From NCBI RefSeq assembly GCF_022430525.1, contig NZ_CP092519.1, forward strand, positions 310,001 to 374,000: 64,000 nucleotides of DNA, written 5' to 3'. The translations under genes and the position numbers were made by a program. Source of the stretch: Cetobacterium somerae (GTDB lineage Bacteria; Fusobacteriota; Fusobacteriia; Fusobacteriales; Fusobacteriaceae). Below the pieces are notes generated by a model. That model was not told the DNA's origin and ran no database searches. It saw only the letters and a program-made list of their open reading frames with translations. Positions 1 through 10,560 of the stretch are shown piece after piece (positions within the stretch are counted from its first letter, which is position 1; every line of letters begins with the position of its first letter).

Positions 1-1110
1 TAAAATATCTAAACTATTAGAACAAGCTATTCTAACAGCTTTATCATTACCAAAAGGTTTTCCTGGAATAACTTTGACTTTTAGTTTTTCAAAAAGATAA
101 TCCGAATATTGTATGGAATTTAAATTAGTTTCACTAATATCTATAAAAATATATATTCCACCTTGTGGAGCAAATGCTCTTAAACCAGTTATATTATTGA
201 TTCTATTTAAACTATATTCAACTCTTTCTTTGTATAGAGGAACAATACTATTTTTTATGTGTTCTCTATTTTTTAGGGCTGCAAGAGCAGCTCTTTGAGA
301 GATAGCTGAAGCACTATAAACAATAACTTCGTTTATTTTTCTAATCGTGTCTATAATAGACGCAGGTGCAATATTATAGCCAACTCTCCAACCAGTCATA
401 GCAAAATTTTTAGAAAAACTACAAACAGAAATAGTTCGCTCCTTCATTCCATCTAAAGTATAAATGGGAATAAAACTATTAGAATAATCATAAAAATCGT
501 AGATATCATCAGCATATATAAGTAAATCATATTTTTTAGCTAATTCACTAATAGTCTCTAAACTTTTTAAAGAGTAACAAACTCCTGTAGGATTAGAAGG
601 TGTATTTATAATAATACCTTTAGTTTTTTTTGTTATAGCTTTTTCTAAGTCTTCTTTAATAATTTGATAGTTATTTTCAATAGTTGTATGAACGATAACT
701 GGAGTTCCATTAGCCTCTTTAATTTGATCTACATAAACTGGAAAAAATGGGGCAATAAGAATAACTTCATCCCCCTCATTCAATGTAGCTTGTAATGCTA
801 AATACATTCCATGACAAGCTCCTGATAAAACAATAACTTCGTTGAGATCAACATTATAATTATTAAACTCAGTTTTATGATATTCAATAATTTCTTTACG
901 AAGGTCTAAATCTCCTAAAGGATCGGTATAGTGTGTATGACCATTTAAAGCATCTTGAAAAGCGGAGTTTATAATAATTTTATCAGTGTGTATATCCAAA
1001 TCTCCAATTCCTAAGTTTATAATTTGATTTTTTTCTGATTCATCAATAGACTTGAAAGTTGTTTCCTCTTTATTTTGAAATCTTTTAGCTAAAAATTTTG
1101 ATCCATTCAT
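1..1110 (-). CDS. Class I/II PLP-dependent aminotransferase (partial, C-terminus off the left edge)
   Basis: The reading frame is open from the ATG at 1110 down to base 1 (370 codons) and runs off the window. It shows the fold-type I aminotransferase landmarks: a substrate-binding YTDPLGD segment near the N-terminus, the NTPSNPTG motif, the ADDIYD motif with the PLP-ring aspartate, and SFSKNFAMTGWR with the Schiff-base lysine near residue 235. The carboxylate-binding arginine is probably the one in VRIACS near the edge. The start is supported by a GGGGG Shine-Dalgarno run about 8 nt upstream and lies 13 nt after the stop of the dehydrogenase gene, so the two form an operon. Because the leader upstream is rich in aromatic codons, an aromatic amino acid or aryl-pyruvate substrate is plausible; this is inference. 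Family call is strong, substrate unknown. Confidence 0.9.
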   Translation of the reverse strand, partial: MNGSKFLAKRFQNKEETTFKSIDESEKNQIINLGIGDLDIHTDKIIINSAFQDALNGHTHYTDPLGDLDLRKEIIEYHKTEFNNYNVDLNEVIVLSGACHGMYLALQATLNEGDEVILIAPFFPVYVDQIKEANGTPVIVHTTIENNYQIIKEDLEKAITKKTKGIIINTPSNPTGVCYSLKSLETISELAKKYDLLIYADDIYDFYDYSNSFIPIYTLDGMKERTISVCSFSKNFAMTGWRVGYNIAPASIIDTIRKINEVIVYSASAISQRAALAALKNREHIKNSIVPLYKERVEYSLNRINNITGLRAFAPQGGIYIFIDISETNLNSIQYSDYLFEKLKVKVIPGKPFGNDKAVRIACSNSLDIL

Positions 1111-1123
1111 TTTAATATCCCCC

Positions 1124-2167
1124 CTATAAATTTCCTTCTAAAATAGTTATAAATTCATCTTTAGTAAAGTTAAGTGGTATTTCGCTACCAGTAATAGAGT
1201 TTAAAATTTTATCAATAATCTCCTCTTTTTTCTCAAGGTATTCATTTTTAACAACAATCTCTTTAAGAGTAGTTGGAAGATTAATCTCTTTATAGAAGTT
1301 TAAAAGATTATTAAGTTCTTCATGATTACCTTCAAGTTGTAATTGAATTAATATACCAAAAGCTACCACTTCTCCATGTAGATGCTCCTCTTCAACTCTT
1401 TTAATTTTAGTTAAAGCATCGAAAATAGCATGGGCAAGTGCTCCATTGTATTTAAAGTCAATAAGATTTGAAACAATACCAGTTGTTACAAGAATAACTC
1501 CAGCAACTTCTTTAAAATCAACATCTACTATTGATGTAGAAAGAGCATGTTTTCCATAATTTAACATTGTTTCTTTACAAAGATGACTTAGCTTTTCTCC
1601 CATAGTAGTATTAAAATTTAATCTTTTTCCACGAGCTTTTAAATTCATTTCGTAATATTTAGCTAAAGTATCTCCTATTCCAGCCCATAAGTATTTTTTA
1701 GGGGCAGCAATTAAAGTATCTAAATTTATGAACGTTTTGTGAGGTGGTCTTTTTAAAAAGTATAACTCTTGAAACACATGATTTTCCTCATACATTACTG
1801 AAATATATGAAACTGCAGCACATGTAGAAGCAATGGTAGGAATAGTAAAAAGTGGTATATTTAATTTATCCATCATAACTTTTGAAGCATCGATAGATTT
1901 TCCGCCACCAATACCAAGAATCAAATCATAAGTATTATCATTTAAATTATCCAAAGTTGAGTTAACAATAGAGTGACAACACTCATTACCATAATGAACT
2001 AGATGAAAATTTTTATCTTTTAAAGTTTTAAAAAATTCATTTTTTATTGATAAAAGAGATTTATCACCATGAATAACTAAGATATTATTATAATTTTGAA
2101 TCTCTTTACCTAAAATATTCCAAATGTTACTGTCCATATAAACTTCTGTTAAAATAGATTTTTCCAT
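1124..2167 (-). CDS. Iron-containing alcohol dehydrogenase family protein (glycerol-dehydrogenase-like)
   Basis: 347 residues, close to the usual length of GldA-type dehydrogenases. Visible landmarks are the nucleotide-binding GIGGGKSIDASK (about residues 86-97), PTIASTCA in the middle, the metal-ligand region WAGIGDTLAKYYE, and the histidines of the HAIFDAL and EEHLHGE segments that complete the metal site. It should catalyse NAD(P)-dependent oxidation of an alcohol or the reverse reduction of a keto group in the cytoplasm. It is the first gene of a two-gene operon with the aminotransferase. A transaminase plus a ketone/alcohol dehydrogenase could interconvert an amino acid, its keto acid and a hydroxy acid. 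Translation starts at an ATG behind GGGAGGAA. Expression is probably set by the leader-peptide attenuator at 2200-2440. Substrate is not determinable from sequence. Confidence 0.85.
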   Translation of the reverse strand: MEKSILTEVYMDSNIWNILGKEIQNYNNILVIHGDKSLLSIKNEFFKTLKDKNFHLVHYGNECCHSIVNSTLDNLNDNTYDLILGIGGGKSIDASKVMMDKLNIPLFTIPTIASTCAAVSYISVMYEENHVFQELYFLKRPPHKTFINLDTLIAAPKKYLWAGIGDTLAKYYEMNLKARGKRLNFNTTMGEKLSHLCKETMLNYGKHALSTSIVDVDFKEVAGVILVTTGIVSNLIDFKYNGALAHAIFDALTKIKRVEEEHLHGEVVAFGILIQLQLEGNHEELNNLLNFYKEINLPTTLKEIVVKNEYLEKKEEIIDKILNSITGSEIPLNFTKDEFITILEGNL

Positions 2168-2202
2168 AAAAATTCCTCCCAGTTCATAAATTTAGATAAA
2201 AT

Positions 2203-2233
2203 AAAAAAGCTTCTGGTTTCCCAAAAGCTTTAA
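2203..2233 (-). terminator. Attenuator terminator between leader peptide and dehydrogenase gene
   Basis: Read on the minus strand, an 11-bp stem (AAAGCTTTTGG with CCAGAAGCTTT, one G-U pair) closed by a short GAAA-type loop runs straight into a T-rich tract. It lies after the leader ORF and before the first structural gene, where a transcription attenuator would be. Upstream of it are two mutually exclusive hairpins: 2297-2317, and 2261-2301 (13 bp, one G-U pair). Confidence 0.8.
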
Positions 2234-2309
2234 ACAATAAATCTTTAAAAAGTTAGTTGGGATATAAGCCTATATTTTTTTAATACAAATAGGCTCATAT
2301 CTATAATTT

Positions 2310-2378
2310 CTAGATATAAACCTTAGTTTTAAAATAATACATAAACCAAAACATAGCCCTAACTTTTCTTAAAGACAT
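2310..2378 (-). CDS. Aromatic-rich 22-residue leader peptide (attenuation peptide)
   Basis: ATG at 2378-2376 sits 8 nt behind a perfect AGGAGG (2387-2392) and the frame closes with TAG at 2312-2310. The peptide begins MSLRKVRAM, continues FWFMYYF at residues 10-16 and ends KTKVYI, so seven of 22 residues are Phe, Tyr or Trp and six of them fall within seven consecutive codons. It is followed by alternative hairpins and a rho-independent terminator before the dehydrogenase-aminotransferase operon. This is the classical arrangement of a ribosome-mediated attenuator such as PheL, TrpL or TnaC leaders. No similarity to a named leader is claimed. Whether the ribosome stalls from lack of charged aromatic tRNA (biosynthetic logic) or by sensing a free amino acid (TnaC-like catabolic logic) cannot be read from the sequence. 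Confidence 0.75.
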   Translation of the reverse strand: MSLRKVRAMFWFMYYFKTKVYI

Positions 2379-2412
2379 TTTAAATTCCTCCTAAAATTTT
2401 TTTATTTGCATA

Positions 2413-2441
2413 AATATAACATAAAAAAATAGGGTTGTAAA
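2413..2441 (-). promoter_or_regulatory. Promoter of the leader peptide-dehydrogenase-aminotransferase operon
   Basis: On the minus strand TTTACA (2441-2436) and TATATT (2418-2413) are separated by 17 bases, placing the likely transcription start shortly before the leader ribosome-binding site. It is divergent from the promoter at 2488-2516. Confidence 0.6.
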
Positions 2442-2487
2442 CATTTTTTTGAAAATATTTTTTTAAAAAAAATAAAATAAAAAAAGA

Positions 2488-2516
2488 TTGACAAAATTAT
2501 AAAAAATTATTATCAT
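2488..2516 (+). promoter_or_regulatory. Sigma-70-type promoter for the solute-binding protein genes
   Basis: TTGACA (2488-2493) and TATCAT (2511-2516) are separated by exactly 17 bases, about 30 bases ahead of the first start codon. Confidence 0.65.
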
Positions 2517-2546
2517 TTTTAAAACATTTATAGCTGGGGGGATTTT

Positions 2547-3317
2547 ATGAAAAGAACATTATTGCTATTAATTATTGTTTCAAATTTTGTCTTTGGAAAA
2601 GATGTGTTTAAAATTGGGGCTACTCCAATACCTGCTGGGGAAATTTTAAATGAGATAAAAGAGGAGTTAGCAAAAGAGGGATTAAATATTGAAATTGTTG
2701 AATTTACAGATTATATTATGCCAAATTTAGCTTTGGCAGATGGTTCTTTAGATGCAAATTTTTTCCAACATAAACCATATTTAGCTAATTTTATGAAAGA
2801 GAAAAATTTAGATTTAGTTCCCTTAGAGGATATATATGTCCCACCATTAGGAGCTTATTCTAAAAAATATAAAAGTGTGAATGAATTAAAAGCTGGAGAT
2901 AAAATAGCTATTCCTAATGATCCTACAAATGCTGGAAGAGCGTTGATTTTATTACATAATAATGGAGTTATAAAGTTATCTAATCCTGAGGATTTAATGG
3001 CTACAGAGTTTGATATAGTTGAAAATCCTAAAAAATTAAAGATTGTTTCTCTACAAGCTGCTCAGTTACCAAGATCTTTAGAAGATGTGGACTTAGCAGT
3101 TATAAATTGTAACTATGCTTTAGATACAGGATTATCACCACAAGAAGACTCTTTAATTGTTGAAGGGAAAGAGAGTGCTTATGGAAATGTGGTAGCAGTA
3201 AGAAAAGGTGATGAAAATAGTAAAGAAGTAGCAACTTTAATGAAAGTTCTAAGGAGTGACAAAGTTAGAAATTTTATATTAGAGAAGTATAAAGGAGGAA
3301 TAATTCCTCTATTCTAA
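2547..3317 (+). CDS. MetQ/NlpA-family substrate-binding protein
   Basis: 256 residues, typical of the NlpA/MetQ family that delivers D- or L-methionine to MetNI importers. Recognisable pieces are FKIGATPIPAGEIL at the mature N-terminus, the DANFFQHKPYL segment, the IPNDPTNAGRAL motif and the NCNYAL segment. A hydrophobic signal sequence (residues 4-17) ends NFVFGKD with no lipobox cysteine, so the mature protein should be soluble in the periplasm, whereas most family members are lipoproteins. Translation starts at an ATG behind GGGGGG. No metN or metI gene is adjacent, so it either serves a transporter encoded elsewhere or has another role. The lipoprotein-type binding protein follows 18 bases downstream, probably in the same transcript. 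The ligand methionine is a family guess. Confidence 0.85.
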   Translation: MKRTLLLLIIVSNFVFGKDVFKIGATPIPAGEILNEIKEELAKEGLNIEIVEFTDYIMPNLALADGSLDANFFQHKPYLANFMKEKNLDLVPLEDIYVPPLGAYSKKYKSVNELKAGDKIAIPNDPTNAGRALILLHNNGVIKLSNPEDLMATEFDIVENPKKLKIVSLQAAQLPRSLEDVDLAVINCNYALDTGLSPQEDSLIVEGKESAYGNVVAVRKGDENSKEVATLMKVLRSDKVRNFILEKYKGGIIPLF

Positions 3318-3335
3318 ACTATTTTGGAGGTCTTT

Positions 3336-4079
3336 ATGAAAAATATATTAAAGGGAATTTTTATAGTATTAATTGCACTGATTGTTTTTAGTTGTGGAGA
3401 AAAAGAAGCCAAGGTTCAAGAAACAAAAGACAGAGTTTTTGTAATTGGAACTAATGCAGAATATCCACCATTTGAATACTTAGAAAACGGGAAAATAGTA
3501 GGGTTAGATCCAGATATTATAGAAGCAATATTTCAAAAACTTGGATATCAGTATAAATGGGCTAATATGGAGTTTGGAGGATTAATATCAGCCTTACAAA
3601 CTGGCAAAATAGATATGGTTATAGCTGGAATGAGTATTACTCCTGAAAGAGCTAAGATGGTTCAATTTACATCTCCTTATCTAACTTCAAAGGTAGCATT
3701 TGTAACAAATCAAAAAAAACCTATAAAAGGAATGGATGATTTAGAGGATAAAAAATATGGAGCAGAATTAGGAACAACAAAAGAAAATACTGCTAAAAAT
3801 ATTTCTGGAGCAACGGTAGTTCCTTTTCAAAATAATACATCAGCTTTATTAGCCTTAAAAAATGGTCAAATAGATGGGATTGTTTTAGATGAGAGTGTTG
3901 CAGAAGAGTATGTTAAAAATAACTCAGATTTATTATTAGTTGGTATTTTAGAAGGGGAACCAAAAGCGATAGCTCTTGGAAAAAATGATAAAGATTTTGA
4001 TAAAATAAACGAAGCATTAGTTCAGTTAGTAAATGATGGAACTATTGAAAAGTTAAAAGAAAAATATAAGGTTAAGTAA
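3336..4079 (+). CDS. Polar amino-acid ABC transporter substrate-binding lipoprotein (SBP family 3)
   Basis: The start is taken at the ATG at 3336 because GGAGG lies at 3326-3330; an upstream TTG at 3324 would overlap that site. The 247-residue product has a signal sequence ending in the lipobox IVFSC, so it should be lipid-anchored. The mature protein shows the family-3 pattern: VIGTNAEYPPFEY, the GLDPDIIEAIF segment, LQTGKIDMVIAGMSITPERA, and a closing domain ending GTIEKLKEKYK. Such proteins bind glutamine, histidine, arginine or related polar amino acids. Permease and ATPase genes are absent nearby, as for its upstream neighbour. A terminator follows directly. The exact ligand cannot be assigned. 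Confidence 0.88.
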   Translation: MKNILKGIFIVLIALIVFSCGEKEAKVQETKDRVFVIGTNAEYPPFEYLENGKIVGLDPDIIEAIFQKLGYQYKWANMEFGGLISALQTGKIDMVIAGMSITPERAKMVQFTSPYLTSKVAFVTNQKKPIKGMDDLEDKKYGAELGTTKENTAKNISGATVVPFQNNTSALLALKNGQIDGIVLDESVAEEYVKNNSDLLLVGILEGEPKAIALGKNDKDFDKINEALVQLVNDGTIEKLKEKYKVK

Positions 4080-4083
4080 GTAG

Positions 4084-4110
4084 AAAGAGAGGAAACTCTC
4101 TTTTTATTTT
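4084..4110 (+). terminator. Rho-independent terminator after the solute-binding protein operon
   Basis: Eight-base-pair stem AAAGAGAG / CTCTCTTT with a GAAA loop followed by a T-rich tail. Confidence 0.85.
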
Positions 4111-4114
4111 TGTG

Positions 4115-4144
4115 ATTGACTTTTAAAAGTCAATAAGATATACT
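4115..4144 (+). promoter_or_regulatory. Promoter with a 20-bp palindromic operator over the -35 box
   Basis: TTGACT (4116-4121) and TATACT (4139-4144) are spaced 17 bases apart ahead of the LytTR regulator gene. The -35 box is the left part of a perfect 20-bp palindrome at 4115-4134, with half-site ATTGACTTTT. A dimeric repressor bound there would block RNA polymerase. LytTR domains usually bind direct repeats, so the palindrome may belong to another factor. Confidence 0.55.
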
Positions 4145-4193
4145 CCTTCTGAAATAGTAATAAATATAACAAAATAATAGTCGGGGAGAGAGA

Positions 4194-4910
4194 ATGCTAA
4201 AAATAGCTATATGTGAGGATGTTGATATCCAATATAAAATATTGGAGAAATATCTTAAGGTTTGGGCATTAAAAAATAATATAACTATACATTTAGTTCA
4301 TTACAAAAGTTCAGAGGAGTTTCTATTTAATTTAGATGAAAATATGGATATGGATATTTTAATATTAGATATTCAAATGAAAGAGATGAATGGAATTGAG
4401 TTAGCTAAAAAGTTAAGAGAAAAAGATGAAGAAATAGCAATTATTTTTGTGACAGGGGTATCAGAATATATTTCTAAAGGATATAGTGTGGGAGCTATAA
4501 ACTATTTGTTAAAACCTCTAAAAGAGGAGGAGTTATTTGACTCTTTAGAAAGAGCTTATAAAAAAATAAAACAATTAAAAGAAAAAAAAGAATCATTAAA
4601 AGTAATTACAGATAAACAAGTAGTAAAAATAAGATATAGTGATATAAAATATTTTGTAGTATATTCTCACTATGTTCATATAGAACTGTTAAATAAGAAA
4701 ATAACTTATAAAAAAAGAATCAGTGATTTAGAAGAGGAGTTACCAAAGACTCATTTTTTAAGGTGCCATAGATCATATATTGTAAACTTACATTTTATAA
4801 AATCTATAGAAAAAGAATCTTTAACCTTAGATGATAATACGATTATTCCTATAAGTAGAGGAAAAAGAGAAAAAGTATTAGAACTATTTATGAATTATTT
4901 TGATATATAA
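4194..4910 (+). CDS. LytTR-family response regulator
   Basis: 238 residues. The receiver domain (about 1-120) carries the acidic pair in AICEDVD, the phospho-acceptor Asp59 in LILDIQ, and the conserved lysine in NYLLKPLKE. The C-terminal half is a LytTR DNA-binding domain (about 135-235) with IKYFVVYSHYVHIEL, the FLRCHRSYIVNL segment and ISRGKREKV. It should be a phosphorylation-controlled transcription factor of the AgrA/LytR type. The partner kinase gene starts 11 bases after the stop. In other bacteria such pairs often control surface proteins, quorum responses or transport; the neighbouring autotransporter at 5663 is a possible target, which is inference. The upstream promoter carries a palindrome that could be an autoregulatory or heterologous operator. 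Confidence 0.9.
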   Translation: MLKIAICEDVDIQYKILEKYLKVWALKNNITIHLVHYKSSEEFLFNLDENMDMDILILDIQMKEMNGIELAKKLREKDEEIAIIFVTGVSEYISKGYSVGAINYLLKPLKEEELFDSLERAYKKIKQLKEKKESLKVITDKQVVKIRYSDIKYFVVYSHYVHIELLNKKITYKKRISDLEEELPKTHFLRCHRSYIVNLHFIKSIEKESLTLDDNTIIPISRGKREKVLELFMNYFDI

Positions 4911-4921
4911 GGAGTAAAGAT

Positions 4922-5518
4922 ATGGATAAAATATTTGATATAGAAAATAATATTGTGAATACAAAAGCTTGGCAACATGATTGGAGTAATCATTTGTCTG
5001 TACTTCTTTTTTTAGTGAAAAGTGGAGAGTATCAAGAACTAGAACATTATATAGAAAATTTAACAAAAGAGATAAAAGTTTTAGAGAAGCAATTACTAAA
5101 TGTTGATAATATAATTTTAAAAGCAATAATTAGTCAAAAAATAGAAATTGCTAAAAATTTTGGAATAGAGTTTATTTTAAAATTAGATATTCCAGAAGAA
5201 ATAAAAATTAAAAACATTGATTTATCGACTTTAATAAATAATTTGTTGGATAATTCTATTGAAGCAAATATTATTACTGGAACTTATAGATGGATAAAAT
5301 TAGAGATATTCAAGATGAAAGAGAATTTATATATAACTGTAAAAAATACTATAAATTGTGAAATAAAACAAGAGGATGGGAAATATAAAACAACAAAACA
5401 AGGTGGAAAAGGAATCGGATTAAGACAAATAGATAAGATTGTAAAATCTTATAAAGGTAGTATAATAAGAAAAATTGAAGATAATATATTTATAACAAAA
5501 ATATTGATTCCACTTTAA
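4922..5518 (+). CDS. Soluble GHKL-type histidine kinase lacking a sensor domain
   Basis: 198 residues, about half the length of AgrC-like kinases. The phospho-acceptor region is WQHDWSNHL with His19, typical of the AgrC/Spo0B-like H-box (HDxxNH). The N-box is NNLLDNSIEA (about residue 112) and the G-box is GGKGIGLRQI (about residue 163), so the ATP-binding GHKL core appears complete. No hydrophobic segment exists anywhere, and the region before the ATG is occupied by the regulator stop and a GGAG ribosome-binding site, so no membrane sensor has been missed upstream. It is therefore a cytoplasmic kinase that must sense an internal signal or partner protein. A strong terminator follows directly, closing the operon. 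Confidence 0.8.
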   Translation: MDKIFDIENNIVNTKAWQHDWSNHLSVLLFLVKSGEYQELEHYIENLTKEIKVLEKQLLNVDNIILKAIISQKIEIAKNFGIEFILKLDIPEEIKIKNIDLSTLINNLLDNSIEANIITGTYRWIKLEIFKMKENLYITVKNTINCEIKQEDGKYKTTKQGGKGIGLRQIDKIVKSYKGSIIRKIEDNIFITKILIPL

Positions 5519-5520
5519 AA

Positions 5521-5552
5521 AAGGCCATAGTTTATAACTATGGTCTTTTTTC
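5521..5552 (+). terminator. Terminator of the two-component operon
   Basis: Stem GGCCATAGTT / AACTATGGTC (one G-U pair) with a tiny loop followed by six or more T. Confidence 0.85.
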
Positions 5553-5662
5553 TAAAACAATTCAGGATCGAAAATATACAATTTGGGTATAGAAAAAGAA
5601 AAAAAATAAATTTTTATAGTAATGTTAAGATAGAATAAAATTCATAATATGGTGGTGTTAAA

Positions 5663-8600
5663 ATGAAAAGAATTTTAAATAATAAAACTATATTTAATAT
5701 AATTATTTTATTTATTTTAATAGAGAAGAATGCTTATATGATGCAGGATATTATAAAAGAAAAAAATTATTTTAATGATAGTGATAAAACTCAAGGTATT
5801 TTGTTAGATAAAGAAGAATCAACTATATACAACAATGGAAAAATTCAAAATTTGAATAAAGTTAATCAAAATAGTGAGTTAATATCTAACGGAATAGAGA
5901 GTCATAAAAATATTGAAAGTCTAGATAATAATGGAGTAATTCTAGGAAGAGCTGAAGTAATAGAGTCTGTGAATAATGTAACAAATAGTGGAAATGGAAT
6001 AGCATTGGAGAATTTAGAAATAAAATTTTTAAAAAATAATGGATATATAAATGGAAGTTTTATAGCAAATGATTTAATAGATAGTAGTGGAAACAGCGGG
6101 AATGGGGTAAACCTTATAGGTAATGATACTGGTCAAACACAAATGGGAGCTAAAATTATAGGTAGTAAACTAGATAAAATAGTAAATGAAGGAGTAATAT
6201 CAGGAAAGGTAGATTCAAGAAATGCAAATAGAGGATTATATAACTCTGGAAATGCAATAAATATAGCTCCAAAAGATTTAATAGGTGGAAGTTATTACTT
6301 TAAAAGTGAAGTGGGAAGTTTTAAAAATTTTGGAAGAGTTATAGGAGAAGCATATATAGAAAATCAAAATTCAAGAAATATAGGAAACGGATTAACAGCT
6401 TTTGGAAGTTACGAAAGTAAAGCTGATGAAATAGTAAATCAAGGAGTAATAAAAGGGAATGTATTTTCAAATTTAAACATAGAGAATAGTGGAAATGGAA
6501 TACATTTAAGTTCTTTCGGACATTTTTTCGGTGGAGACTTTATAACTTCAAAAATAGAAAATAAAGGTATTGTTGAAGGAGAAGCTAATACAAGTGCATT
6601 AAATTTTGGAAGTGGAAATGGAATAATTATTGATGGAAGAGGTATACAGACAAAAATAGAAAATCTTGAAAATAGTGGAGTTATAAGCGGTTATAGTTCA
6701 AAACTTAATAATGAGAAATCTGGAAATGGAGTATATTCAGGTTATAATATTACAACTCTTTTTAATGAAGGAGTAATAAAAGGTAATAATACTGCAATTA
6801 GTTTTGGTGGAGTTAAAGATGCTAACTTCAATGGGAAGTTAACAAGTTTAGTCAATAATGGAATACTAATCGGAAATAATATTTTTAGAGTAGGAAAGAT
6901 TCCAGAAAATGAAGTCAATAATGGGCTATACATAAATCTGAAGGAAAATGGAGAAGTAGATAGTATTAGGCAAGATTTAAATAATGTTAATGATAATAAT
7001 GGAAGAGAGATAATTAATATTGTAAATGGATTAGATGGTTATATACTTGCGGGCTCAGAATATAAAAATAAAGTTTTAAATGGAGCAGGAGTATCAACTG
7101 GAACATTAACACTCTCAAAGAATCAAATTACAACAGTGGAGAATACGATAATAAATGCATATAAAACTGCAGTTACTTTAAATGATAATACAAATTTAAA
7201 AATACAAGATTCCTTAATAAATGGTGGCGGAATAAAAAATGAAAATCCAATAATACAAGTCTTAGGAAATGAAGCTAATTTAGATATTACAAAGAATACC
7301 GTTCTAAATGGAAAAATAAGTGTAGACGGGAATAATAATACATTATATATTGATAATAGCGTTAAAATAAATGGAGACATAGTATCAAAAGGTCAACTTA
7401 ATACTTTGAAATTAGGAACTAGTAATTCAAATGAAGAGTTAAAAATATATGATAAAATAGAAAATTTTGATGAGATAAAAACAAATGGAAAGGTTACATT
7501 GTATTCTACGTCAAAAGTAAATGCCGTTGCAGATATAGATATAGAGCATGGAACATTATTAGTGAGATTAGATGGAAGTAAAAGAGATGAGAAAGGAAGA
7601 GTAACAGGTCATGCATTGTATGATCATACAGGAGCTATAATATTAGGAGAGAAAGGAAATATAGGAGATCATTTACCAGATGGTGATAATCATCCAGATA
7701 TTCAAGCAGGAGCACAACTATTTTTTAAGGCTAGCGGATTAACAAATGGAACAGTTATAGCAATGAAAGAAACAGATATCACAGGCTTAAAAGATTCTCA
7801 GATAGGAACCTATTCTATAGCTCATACAGCAAGAAAATTTATACCTGGAAAAGATGATATATGGTTATTGAATTCAGGAACAAATACTTATGCAATAAGA
7901 GCGACAGAAACGATAGATATTATAATAGATACACTAAATTTAGATGATATTATAAACAGGCCAGACGATAAAGAAAAACCAGATAACAAAGGTGAAGAGA
8001 AACCAGATAATCCTCCGGATAATGAGGTAGAAGATAGAGAAGATTTAGGTGATATATGGGACAGTATAGTAAATGGTGGGGAAGAGGATTATCTGGCTCC
8101 AACATTAGACTATGAAGATGGAAAGAATATAGTAGAAGCTAAAAAAGAGTTGATATCTATATTGGATCAAATATATGCAAATAATCCCTACTCTTATATA
8201 GGAGAAGCCTCTAAAGAAAGTTTGAGATTATATCAAGATAATATTTTTACAACAAAAATGCCTAAAAAGGATGAGTGGATTACAGAAGCACACGGAATAT
8301 ACGGGTATGATAAATTTGAAAAAGCTGAGCAAAATAATAGATTTGGAAAAGAGATTCAAAAGAATAGCTATTCAAGTAATGTAAGTACGTATGGAATGCT
8401 AGGAACAGCAGAGTACGGAATATTAGAGGATACATCTCTAGGAATTGCTATTGGTGGTAGTAAACAAAAAGTAGATATGTCAAAGGGAACAAAAATAGAT
8501 GGAAACTCTGGATATATTGGAGTTTATGGTAAAAAAAATGTAAATAGATTTAGAATTACTAGTGGAATAGGTTATCAACATAACGAATATGATGTGGATA

Positions 8601-9130
8601 GAATTTTAATAAATAAATACCAAGAATTTAAAAATAATGGTAGTTTATCTACAGATAGCATAGGGGTTTATTTAGAGGGAAAATATTTTATAAAAAGTGA
8701 GACTGGAGTTTCAATAGAACCTAAGTTGAGACTAAGTTATATGAATATATCTCAAGAAGAAGTTAAAGAGAAATCTAATGAATTAGCAATAGATGTGGAT
8801 GGAAAAAATTATCAAAATACAGATATTTTAATAGGAGTAGATTTTTCTAAGAAAAAATATTTAAAAGGTGGTTTATTAGAGTTTAAAGGTGAACTAAGTT
8901 ATATGAAAACTTTGGATACTGAAAGAGATTATTTAACAGGTAGAATAAAAAATAGTACATCTTTTAAAATTAAAGGGCCAGAAATAACAGAGGATAGAAT
9001 AAGAATTATCGTTGGTATAGATTATGAAAAAGTAAATGGAGTTTTCTATAATTTATATACTGGTGTAGAGTTAGCAGATAAAGATAGAATAGATACAAAT
9101 GTTAAAATAGGAGTAGGATATAGATTTTAA
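5663..9130 (+). CDS. Autotransporter (type Va) adhesin-like outer-membrane protein
   Basis: 1155 residues. A hydrophobic N-terminal segment (about residues 10-20) serves as export signal. The passenger (about 40-700) contains many imperfect repeats of the type NSGNGI, NNGVI.G and ENKGI, the pattern of right-handed beta-helix passengers in Fusobacterium autotransporters. A proline/charged linker (EKPDN, PPDNEVED) near residues 770-795 precedes a helix and the translocator. The last 270 residues form the beta-barrel: alternating strands such as SLGIAIGGSKQ, GYIGVYGKK and RITSGIGYQH, and a C-terminal GVGYRF ending in Phe, as needed for BAM-dependent insertion. It should expose its passenger on the cell surface. 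No protease catalytic triad is evident. It is monocistronic and ends at a bidirectional terminator shared with the convergent regulator gene. Confidence 0.88.
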   Translation: MKRILNNKTIFNIIILFILIEKNAYMMQDIIKEKNYFNDSDKTQGILLDKEESTIYNNGKIQNLNKVNQNSELISNGIESHKNIESLDNNGVILGRAEVIESVNNVTNSGNGIALENLEIKFLKNNGYINGSFIANDLIDSSGNSGNGVNLIGNDTGQTQMGAKIIGSKLDKIVNEGVISGKVDSRNANRGLYNSGNAINIAPKDLIGGSYYFKSEVGSFKNFGRVIGEAYIENQNSRNIGNGLTAFGSYESKADEIVNQGVIKGNVFSNLNIENSGNGIHLSSFGHFFGGDFITSKIENKGIVEGEANTSALNFGSGNGIIIDGRGIQTKIENLENSGVISGYSSKLNNEKSGNGVYSGYNITTLFNEGVIKGNNTAISFGGVKDANFNGKLTSLVNNGILIGNNIFRVGKIPENEVNNGLYINLKENGEVDSIRQDLNNVNDNNGREIINIVNGLDGYILAGSEYKNKVLNGAGVSTGTLTLSKNQITTVENTIINAYKTAVTLNDNTNLKIQDSLINGGGIKNENPIIQVLGNEANLDITKNTVLNGKISVDGNNNTLYIDNSVKINGDIVSKGQLNTLKLGTSNSNEELKIYDKIENFDEIKTNGKVTLYSTSKVNAVADIDIEHGTLLVRLDGSKRDEKGRVTGHALYDHTGAIILGEKGNIGDHLPDGDNHPDIQAGAQLFFKASGLTNGTVIAMKETDITGLKDSQIGTYSIAHTARKFIPGKDDIWLLNSGTNTYAIRATETIDIIIDTLNLDDIINRPDDKEKPDNKGEEKPDNPPDNEVEDREDLGDIWDSIVNGGEEDYLAPTLDYEDGKNIVEAKKELISILDQIYANNPYSYIGEASKESLRLYQDNIFTTKMPKKDEWITEAHGIYGYDKFEKAEQNNRFGKEIQKNSYSSNVSTYGMLGTAEYGILEDTSLGIAIGGSKQKVDMSKGTKIDGNSGYIGVYGKKNVNRFRITSGIGYQHNEYDVDRILINKYQEFKNNGSLSTDSIGVYLEGKYFIKSETGVSIEPKLRLSYMNISQEEVKEKSNELAIDVDGKNYQNTDILIGVDFSKKKYLKGGLLEFKGELSYMKTLDTERDYLTGRIKNSTSFKIKGPEITEDRIRIIVGIDYEKVNGVFYNLYTGVELADKDRIDTNVKIGVGYRF

Positions 9131-9131
9131 T

Positions 9132-9168
9132 AAAAAAGGTGGTTTTTCATATAAAACCACCTTTTTTA
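9132..9168. terminator. Bidirectional terminator between autotransporter and regulator
   Basis: Stem AAAAAAGGTGGTTTT with AAAACCACCTTTTTT; A and T tracts on both sides make it usable from either strand. Confidence 0.85.
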
Positions 9169-10560
9169 TTCATTGTAGAAATTATTAACACCTAAACAAA
9201 AAGCTTTTTCTTCTAAAATATTTTGAACTTTAGAATTACAATAAAAATCAATGACGAAAACATTTGGATTTATTTTTTCATCACTAATAACTAAATCATA
9301 GTCACTAAAATCTCTAAGAATATTTTTTTTGTGAAAGAATGAAGCTTCCAAATCAAATTTTATATCAGGAGCTAATTTAATTAGACTTCTTTTAAATAAA
9401 GTATAATGATTTGCATTTATTTCATTAAAAAGAAATAAAACATTTTTTATCTTAGAAAAATTATCTTCTATCAGAGCTCTTTTTAAAGCGAAAACTATTG
9501 AAAATTTATCTCCTAAGAAAAAATCATAAGAATGTTTGTCTGAAATATAATCTAGTTTATTTAAAAGAATTTTTTCATTATCATTAAAATATGTATTTTT
9601 AAAATCTATTATATTATTTTTATATTTAAATAAAGCAAGATAGATGTTGTGAAAAAGCATATCTTCTAGCTCTGAAGTTATATTTGATATTTTAAATTCT
9701 TCTTTTAAAATATTCAAAAATTTTAGAGTTCTAACTTTATTATCTTTATCTAAAAAATAGTAATCTAAAATTAAGGTAGTTAAAAAGAAAGCTAATTCAT
9801 CCTTATATTTCGGATGAAAATCTCTACCATATTTATTAATTAGTGATTTTATATGATTAAATTCTTTAGTTTCAAGATAACTTTCATTTCTGAATAAAGA
9901 TTCTTCAAATATTTCTGAACAAATTTCTAAAGAATATAGAAAAGAAAGTAAAAAATAATTAACAGATATATTAGAAAATTTAAGAATAGGATAAATTTGA
10001 GATAACCTAGTTTTAGTATCAAATTTTTTTATATCTATTAAAAGAGATTTTAGTGGAGGAACTAAAATATCCTCTTCTATAAAAAGTTTCATAAGCTTTC
10101 TATGGAAATTTTTTTTATCACTGAAGCTAAGTTCAGTTATTAAAAGTCCCTTTCCATGAAGATATTCATAACGAGTACCATTTTTTAAAAACTCATCTTT
10201 AACACTTTGAAAACATCTGAGAATAGTACTTCTAGAAAGATCTAAAATTTCTTTTTCTTTTTCTAAATTTAAAAAACCATGGGCAATAAACTTAATATAA
10301 AGATAATCAATTCTTTCTTCTACAGTTAAAACATTAAAATTATTAAAAAGTATTTCCCATTGTTTTTTAGTAAGTATTAAATGAAAAGCATCCTCTTTTT
10401 TTTCGATTTTAGGTAAATCAATAGATTCTAAAAAATCATTAATTTGTGAAATAGTTTTTAAAATAGCATTTTTTTCAACTTTTAAATACAGATGCATGTC
10501 TTCTACAGACATTTCAGTTTGCGATAAAATTTTTAAAACATTAGCAGCTGTTGTATTCAT
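9166..10560 (-). CDS. Mga/BglG-like multidomain transcriptional regulator, paralogue 1
   Basis: 464 residues. Residues 1-50 form a first helix-turn-helix-like segment (NTTAANVLKILSQTEMSVEDM). A second one near 100-145 has the signature of BglG/MtlR/Mga proteins: LDLSRSTILRCFQSVKDEFL followed by YLHGKGLLIT. The central part resembles PRD-like helical domains. The C-terminus has an EIIB-like Rossmann pattern (NVLFLFNEI, then DYDLVISDEK) but no phosphorylatable cysteine, as in Mga. This suggests a PTS-derived regulator of the kind that controls surface adhesins in streptococci; that function is inference. It is closely related to the genes at 10648 and 14573 and more distantly to 13093. ATG behind GGAGGTG. 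Convergent with the autotransporter gene, a plausible target. Confidence 0.7.
   Translation of the reverse strand: MNTTAANVLKILSQTEMSVEDMHLYLKVEKNAILKTISQINDFLESIDLPKIEKKEDAFHLILTKKQWEILFNNFNVLTVEERIDYLYIKFIAHGFLNLEKEKEILDLSRSTILRCFQSVKDEFLKNGTRYEYLHGKGLLITELSFSDKKNFHRKLMKLFIEEDILVPPLKSLLIDIKKFDTKTRLSQIYPILKFSNISVNYFLLSFLYSLEICSEIFEESLFRNESYLETKEFNHIKSLINKYGRDFHPKYKDELAFFLTTLILDYYFLDKDNKVRTLKFLNILKEEFKISNITSELEDMLFHNIYLALFKYKNNIIDFKNTYFNDNEKILLNKLDYISDKHSYDFFLGDKFSIVFALKRALIEDNFSKIKNVLFLFNEINANHYTLFKRSLIKLAPDIKFDLEASFFHKKNILRDFSDYDLVISDEKINPNVFVIDFYCNSKVQNILEEKAFCLGVNNFYNE

Follow-up and report, generated by a model that had tools for sequence, protein, structure and literature searches.

A predicted aromatic leader-peptide attenuator upstream of a dehydrogenase-aminotransferase operon in Cetobacterium somerae and its codon-matched relatives in Fusobacteriaceae

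In the classical leader-peptide systems of Escherichia coli, such as trpL, hisL and pheL, a short leader ORF with control codons is followed by mutually exclusive hairpins and an intrinsic terminator, and the genes behind it are fitted to the codons. Arrest leaders of the TnaC type carry conserved arrest residues towards the C-terminus of the peptide. T-box RNAs (RF00230) likewise provide amino-acid-specific antitermination of synthetase, biosynthesis and uptake genes, but they sense tRNA by direct binding and need no peptide. The leader peptides recognised by 2010 came from Proteobacteria and Actinobacteria, to which His leaders in bacilli were added (PMC2965389), and His leaders have been described in three Firmicute lineages (PMC9413887). 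In the open-access PMC literature we found no report of leader attenuators in Fusobacteriota; subscription papers lay outside the scope of this search, and an earlier description is possible.

The locus studied here lies on the minus strand of a 64,000-nucleotide stretch of the Cetobacterium somerae genome (the window), where the gene order is leader and terminator, then dehydrogenase, then aminotransferase (Table 1). It shares with the proteobacterial trpL, hisL and pheL systems the leader ORF, control codons, exclusive hairpins and intrinsic terminator, a fit of genes to codons is seen in its relatives and may extend to the window operon, and the leader would work like the classical proteobacterial attenuators. 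Unlike them, it holds an additional core at the leader stop codon, in which segments b and d compete for segment c and which is common to several specificities, and its sensor mixes Phe, Trp and Tyr. The His-leader attenuators reported for Firmicutes (PMC2965389, PMC9413887) likewise place a leader rich in His, together with attenuator, antiterminator and terminator, upstream of his genes. Among Rfam families, Phe_leader (RF01859) and the trpB motif (RF04312) also place a terminator after alternative hairpins, and members of the family described below reach at best 38.1 and 32.4 bits with them, respectively, against thresholds of 59 and 55. The window element itself scores 24.0 with the trpB motif and 17.6 with Phe_leader, both below threshold; no Rfam leader family attained its gathering score in window positions 1-10000, and permissive searches returned sub-threshold leader matches only. 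No T-box match was present at the window or elsewhere in the window genome (G000). Leader-peptide attenuation would operate here in a phylum in which the T-box is above its gathering score in only 2 of the 98 genomes searched. Sub-threshold T-box matches were present in 18 more; members of the leader family described here occur in five of these as well (G016, G019, G024, G035, G077), and the two kinds of control may coexist.

Table 1. Coordinates of the operon genes and of the leader element within the window
Feature	Position	Strand	Remarks
Aminotransferase gene, class I/II PLP, cut by window edge	1..1110	-	PRK06348 is the closest NCBIfam model, score under cut-off
Iron-containing alcohol dehydrogenase family protein gene	1124..2167	-	nearest models glycerol dehydrogenase, PRK10586; below cut-offs
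Intrinsic terminator	2203..2231	-	11 pairs, then T run; -14.1 kcal/mol alone
Segment e	2242..2256	-	pairs with a, or with d's tail takes terminator 5' arm
Segment d	2261..2273	-	pairs with c; 3' tail begins antiterminator UCCCAA:UUGGGA
Segment c	2289..2303	-	partner is b or d
Segment b	2311..2323	-	leader ORF end including part of stop codon; pairs with c
Leader ORF MSLRKVRAMFWFMYYFKTKVYI	2310..2378	-	22 codons + TAG (2312-2310)
Aromatic control codons 10-16, FWFMYYF	2331-2351	-	
Segment a	2359..2375	-	leader codons 2-7; complementary to e; shuffle test, MFE structure
AGGAGG ribosome binding site of leader ORF	2387..2392	-	8 nt before ATG at 2378
Sigma-70-like promoter TTTACA-17-TATATT	2413..2441	-	TG before -10; consensus matches 10/12
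Hairpin b:c	2323-2311 with 2303-2291	-	
Hairpin c:d	2301-2289 with 2273-2261	-	
Pairing a:e	2375-2359 with 2256-2242	-	core AAAAGTTAG/CTAACTTTT

The initial annotation had described a 22-codon ORF with an AGGAGG site and FWFMYYF at residues 10-16, two mutually exclusive hairpins and a rho-independent terminator, and all of these are present on the minus strand. The hairpins b:c and c:d exclude each other by having strand c in common, while the terminator 5' arm lies outside both and is sequestered or released via e and the 3' tail of d. A translatable short ORF with control codons sits between promoter and terminator, and terminator and antiterminator structures exclude each other, a result that depends on the folding model. 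The annotation had also put forward a further pairing between the leader and the stretch before the terminator; it proved to be the core of the longer a:e pairing (-14.1 kcal/mol; shuffling e 1000 times gave p=0.027), which recurs in dissimilar leaders and looks like a part of the switch. In regard to chance, 3 terminator-like sites occur in the scanned region versus 0.1 expected in shuffles, and the 210-nt leader folds with z=-5.3. Of ORFs of 10-40 codons that follow a Shine-Dalgarno site and have six or more of seven aromatic residues, Trp among them, the actual 64-kb window holds one, versus 0.000, 0.017 and 0.017 per 64 kb in Markov sequences of order 1, 2 and 3 (120 windows per order).

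A covariance model built from five aromatic copies of the element, searched in 98 Fusobacteriota genomes, gave a distant match in G025: a Trp leader, MKINKVALFWWSWIIT, with the same hairpins and terminator, located before an ABC transporter whose binding protein matches the tryptophan-specific TrpX as the sole model at that threshold (199 bits, cut-off 390). A pattern of c and its loop allowing 3 mismatches led to a His leader, MKNLKLTIKGHHHHH, before hisZ in G016. Further members came from models of the b-c-loop-d core, among which R2 and R3 exclude segment a, e and the terminator. These are MRNKNLLNKGQHHHH (His) before hisZ-hisG in G028; MNIKGVSRNYYYYYYE, with six Tyr codons, in G002, where the next gene encodes a binding protein similar to TrpX (213 bits, cut-off 390); MLYGVFFDTTTTLTNK, with four Thr codons, which precedes thrS in both G035 and G077; and MLYSSILLPVYPIVP and MLYSSILLPIYPIVP (Pro), which precede putP in G015 and G027. 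G024, G077 and G019 add one further His leader each, again upstream of hisZ-hisG. The thrS of G035 and the putP of G027 are above curated cut-offs, while the thrS of G077, the putP of G015 and the hisZ of G024 were assigned by eye from their likeness to G035 thrS, G027 putP and G077 hisZ, respectively.

Altogether, the family comprises 16 leaders in six genera of one family, with 5 aromatic, 5 His, 2 Thr, 2 Pro, 1 Tyr and 1 Trp sensors. The 11 leaders outside the aromatic set precede hisZ (all five His), thrS (both Thr), putP (both Pro) and TrpX-like genes (Tyr and Trp). Control codons match gene function for the His, Thr and Pro relatives, and for the Tyr and Trp relatives such a match is plausible. 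Seven of these 11 leaders (Thr, Pro and His) were absent from the training of any model, and in 7 of 7 the codons fit the next gene, which makes them a fair test of this relation. The R3 search gave 72 rows at E up to 0.3; among the 55 examined, the 16 leaders occupied all 11 top rows and 5 of the 44 others, while the other 39 rows held no comparable leader, many of them looking like terminators or coding sequence. The remaining 17 rows stand outside this count, and two of them are reverse-strand matches on known G006 leaders. Searching the genus with R3 at a more permissive setting revealed no new leader among the loci examined. Searched as a DNA pattern in 96 genomes, FWFxYYF occurs at 14 places, 5 of which are the known leaders; the other 9 have no leader-like ORF, and the reversed control pattern yielded 8 matches. 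Matches of R1 in G017, G006:C1:1152281 and G026 look like terminators or AT-rich stretches and were rejected as leaders, as were the DNA-similarity matches L002-L005, L052, L054 and L055, which are AT-rich promoter regions or coding sequence.

The RNA anatomy is shared as well. Segment b begins at the leader stop codon, overlaps it or lies within a few nucleotides of it. Repeats b and d resemble each other and compete for c, and most members have UUUGU in the loop after c. Pairing with the terminator 5' arm involves the tail of d, by itself or together with e, through UCCCAA:UUGGGA in the aromatic leaders, UAUCCCAG:UUGGGAUA in the Trp, GUAUCCUAAA:UUUAGGAUAU in the Tyr, GUAUCUGGG:CCCGGAUGC in the G024 His and UGUAUCG:CGAUACA in the Pro leader. 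In the Trp and Tyr leaders, e pairs with a stretch that contains the start codon, and in the His and Pro leaders with one including or ending at control codons; in the Thr leader a:e is not significant (p=0.41). Over eight dissimilar leaders, mononucleotide shuffles on hand-drawn segments, as used for the single leaders too, gave combined p values of 7.5e-9 for a:e and 2.8e-9 for antiterminator complementarity. Shuffle p values for b:c and c:d were set aside as biased, the segments having been picked as helices and the b:c pairs being contained in R2 and R3. Covariation within the alignment is weak, with double changes at one pair in b:c and one in c:d, and the argument is based on recurrence across leaders and not on covariation counts.

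We give a probability of about 0.8 to the reading that the window element is a ribosome-mediated transcription attenuator responding to aromatic aminoacyl-tRNA (Phe, Trp, Tyr). This mechanism, already proposed in the initial annotation from the aromatic codons, is now the best-supported one, because in relatives the same core follows leaders whose codons fit the downstream gene; this comparative fit is the strongest evidence for it. Alternatively, the aromatic nascent peptide could arrest the ribosome in a TnaC-like manner when aromatic amino acids are in excess and thereby block termination, inducing a catabolic aminotransferase-reductase pair by its substrates. The enzyme pair could indeed be catabolic, and family-3 amino acid binding proteins adjoin the enzymes here and in other genera. 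However, the C-terminal residues, where TnaC-type leaders are conserved, vary among the copies of the window leader (KTKVYI, KTMVYV, KTKVCI), the terminator is intrinsic, and the core is also found behind homopolymeric leaders of His, Thr, Pro and Tyr, whose downstream genes (hisZ, thrS, putP and one for a transporter) fit control by starvation, so that induction by excess appears improbable.

Within the genus, 12 genomes were searched, and close relatives of the dehydrogenase (at least 72% identity) were found in the window genome and 7 others; a dehydrogenase 91% identical is present at the same locus in a MAG named Cetobacterium, which is placed in the same genus. Leader, hairpins and terminator occur at the dehydrogenase operon in 4 of the 12 (the window's, G007, G009 and G006), but in G002 the promoter is followed directly by the terminator, with the leader absent, and the operons of G008, G010 and G011 have neither leader nor terminator. 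Given this distribution, the leader device is a lineage feature, and in G002 the leader was probably lost. A terminator kept without its leader, the pattern named beforehand as one that would refute attenuation, is thus seen in one species, while four others keep the leader. The promoter is also retained in G007, G009, G006 and G002, and GGAGG in the other leader copies. The leaders of G007, G009 and G006 show the C-terminal variants KTMVYV and KTKVCI, and their aromatic codons are unchanged, which by itself is weak evidence, because the copies are close in DNA.

Residues 9-16 read MFWFMYYF in all four genomes, and it could be proposed that the sensor reads the whole substrate set of the aminotransferase (Met, Phe, Trp and Tyr) and not aromatics alone, a proposal to which the divergent MetQ-like gene would also be suited. 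Such a sensor is rated slightly lower still than induction by excess, because a second copy of the element in G006 has lost both internal Met residues. This copy is 88% identical, is located before a PTS_EIIC_2-family gene and encodes the peptide MSLRNFRAIFWFTYYFKTKVYI, in which 4 residues differ, including both internal Mets (to Ile and Thr), while all seven aromatics are intact. Its locus is flanked like the dehydrogenase operon of G002, with two unclassified genes upstream and a MipA gene downstream that both loci have in common. Least likely of all is that leader and hairpins are passive, the terminator merely lowering basal expression and the short ORF being decoration or an aid to re-initiation, since, although the terminator stands alone in G002 and three species have neither part, the copies retain the alternative pairings, and genes of six specificities have this core together with codons that match them.

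According to the attenuation model, RNA polymerase would start at the promoter and a ribosome would translate the leader. A shortage of charged tRNA for Phe, Trp or Tyr would make it stall in codons 10-16, leaving b free to bind c, and thus d free as well. Since the stalled ribosome, or another queued behind it, would cover a, e would be unable to pair with a, and the tail of d together with e could capture the terminator 5' arm, allowing transcription into the dehydrogenase and aminotransferase genes. When the leader is completed, the ribosome at the stop codon would cover b, c:d would form, the exposed a would take e, and the terminator would form. If the leader is not translated, a:e would form too and transcription would stop. 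The sequence data show the elements, their conservation, the exclusive pairings and, in relatives, the agreement of leader codons with gene function; stalling, the queueing step and the ON-when-starved direction are what we infer, and this direction fits because the controlled genes of the relatives make, import or charge the cognate amino acid. By the same starvation logic, both window enzymes are predicted to provide aromatic amino acids, either by converting aryl-keto or aryl-hydroxy acids or by carrying out a final step of biosynthesis.

The model was followed in ViennaRNA folds with ribosome-covered bases barred from pairing, which are equilibrium folds of a kinetic switch. In the four aromatic sequences, the antiterminator stayed at or below 0.10 with no ribosome or with a ribosome at the stop codon alone, and rose to 0.66-0.77 once the start of the leader was covered. 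One ribosome, placed at W11, gave 0.01, 0.22, 0.76 and 0.00, freeing the antiterminator in one of the four, and in more of them when a longer 5' end was used, while a ribosome at codon 12 with a queued one at the start gave 0.72, 0.72, 0.76 and 0.72. The Trp and Tyr leaders need the queued ribosome in this model (0.66 and 0.72 vs 0.00 for the stall alone), and the G028 His leader formed the antiterminator in no state modelled. With ribosomes at both stop and start codons, the aromatic antiterminator persisted (0.73-0.77) and was clearly lowered in the Trp leader only (0.21). In these folds, then, c:d alone does not block the aromatic antiterminator, and for this reason a c:d checkpoint is suggested more by conservation than by folding. 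The folds support the outline of the attenuation model, not its every step.

It is also possible, although we put this somewhat short of an even chance, that Fusobacteriaceae possess a modular attenuator, in which one core, made of repeats b and d competing for c with its UUUGU loop at the leader stop codon, is combined with exchangeable codon sensors (His, Thr, Pro, Tyr, Trp and mixed aromatic) and exchangeable a:e and terminator parts. Such a device would be a gate with two checkpoints, at which read-through requires a ribosome that occupies the leader (a covered) but is still short of the stop codon (b free). The window codons would then predict that the dehydrogenase-aminotransferase pair, like the PTS_EIIC_2 protein behind the second G006 copy, takes part in aromatic amino acid supply. 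One core is common to six specificities, which looks as though the switch had been transferred between genes and refitted, and this wider family is a more interesting result than the single window leader. In this poorly annotated phylum, leader codons could be read as a direct, testable code for what genes do, be they transporter genes, that of the uncharacterised PTS_EIIC_2 protein or the enzyme pair, and a mixed aromatic sensor at a transamination operon would predict the direction in which the enzymes run. The pathway genes do not settle the role of the dehydrogenase and aminotransferase: chorismate synthase is found in 11 of the 12 genus genomes, and prephenate dehydratase in 4 of the 12, including G000, G007 and G009 and excluding G006.

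Regarding the surroundings, genes for a MetQ-like and a family-3 amino acid binding protein lie divergently at 2547-4079 (+) of the window, and in other genera (L014, L015, L017) dehydrogenase relatives are located directly behind a similar-looking family-3 binding protein gene. This adjacency hints at one unit for amino acid uptake and conversion. The window binding protein genes are followed at 4194-5518 (+) by genes for a LytTR response regulator and a GHKL-type kinase fragment. Two tandem genes of 464-475 codons lie ahead of the leader locus in G006 (L051, 4856-7766) and of the leaderless operon in G002 (L053, 274-3125); one of them was scanned and had no Pfam or NCBIfam match, and their start gives us the impression of an HTH regulator. 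About 430 nt upstream of the Tyr leader element of G002, and on the same strand, is a c-di-GMP-I riboswitch (L123, 1713-1788 (-); 62.2 bits vs a threshold of 35). Finally, a strong palindrome at 9111-9184 of the window, with chance microRNA-family matches on both strands, stands at the end of a 1155-codon ORF (5663-9130) and may be a terminator.
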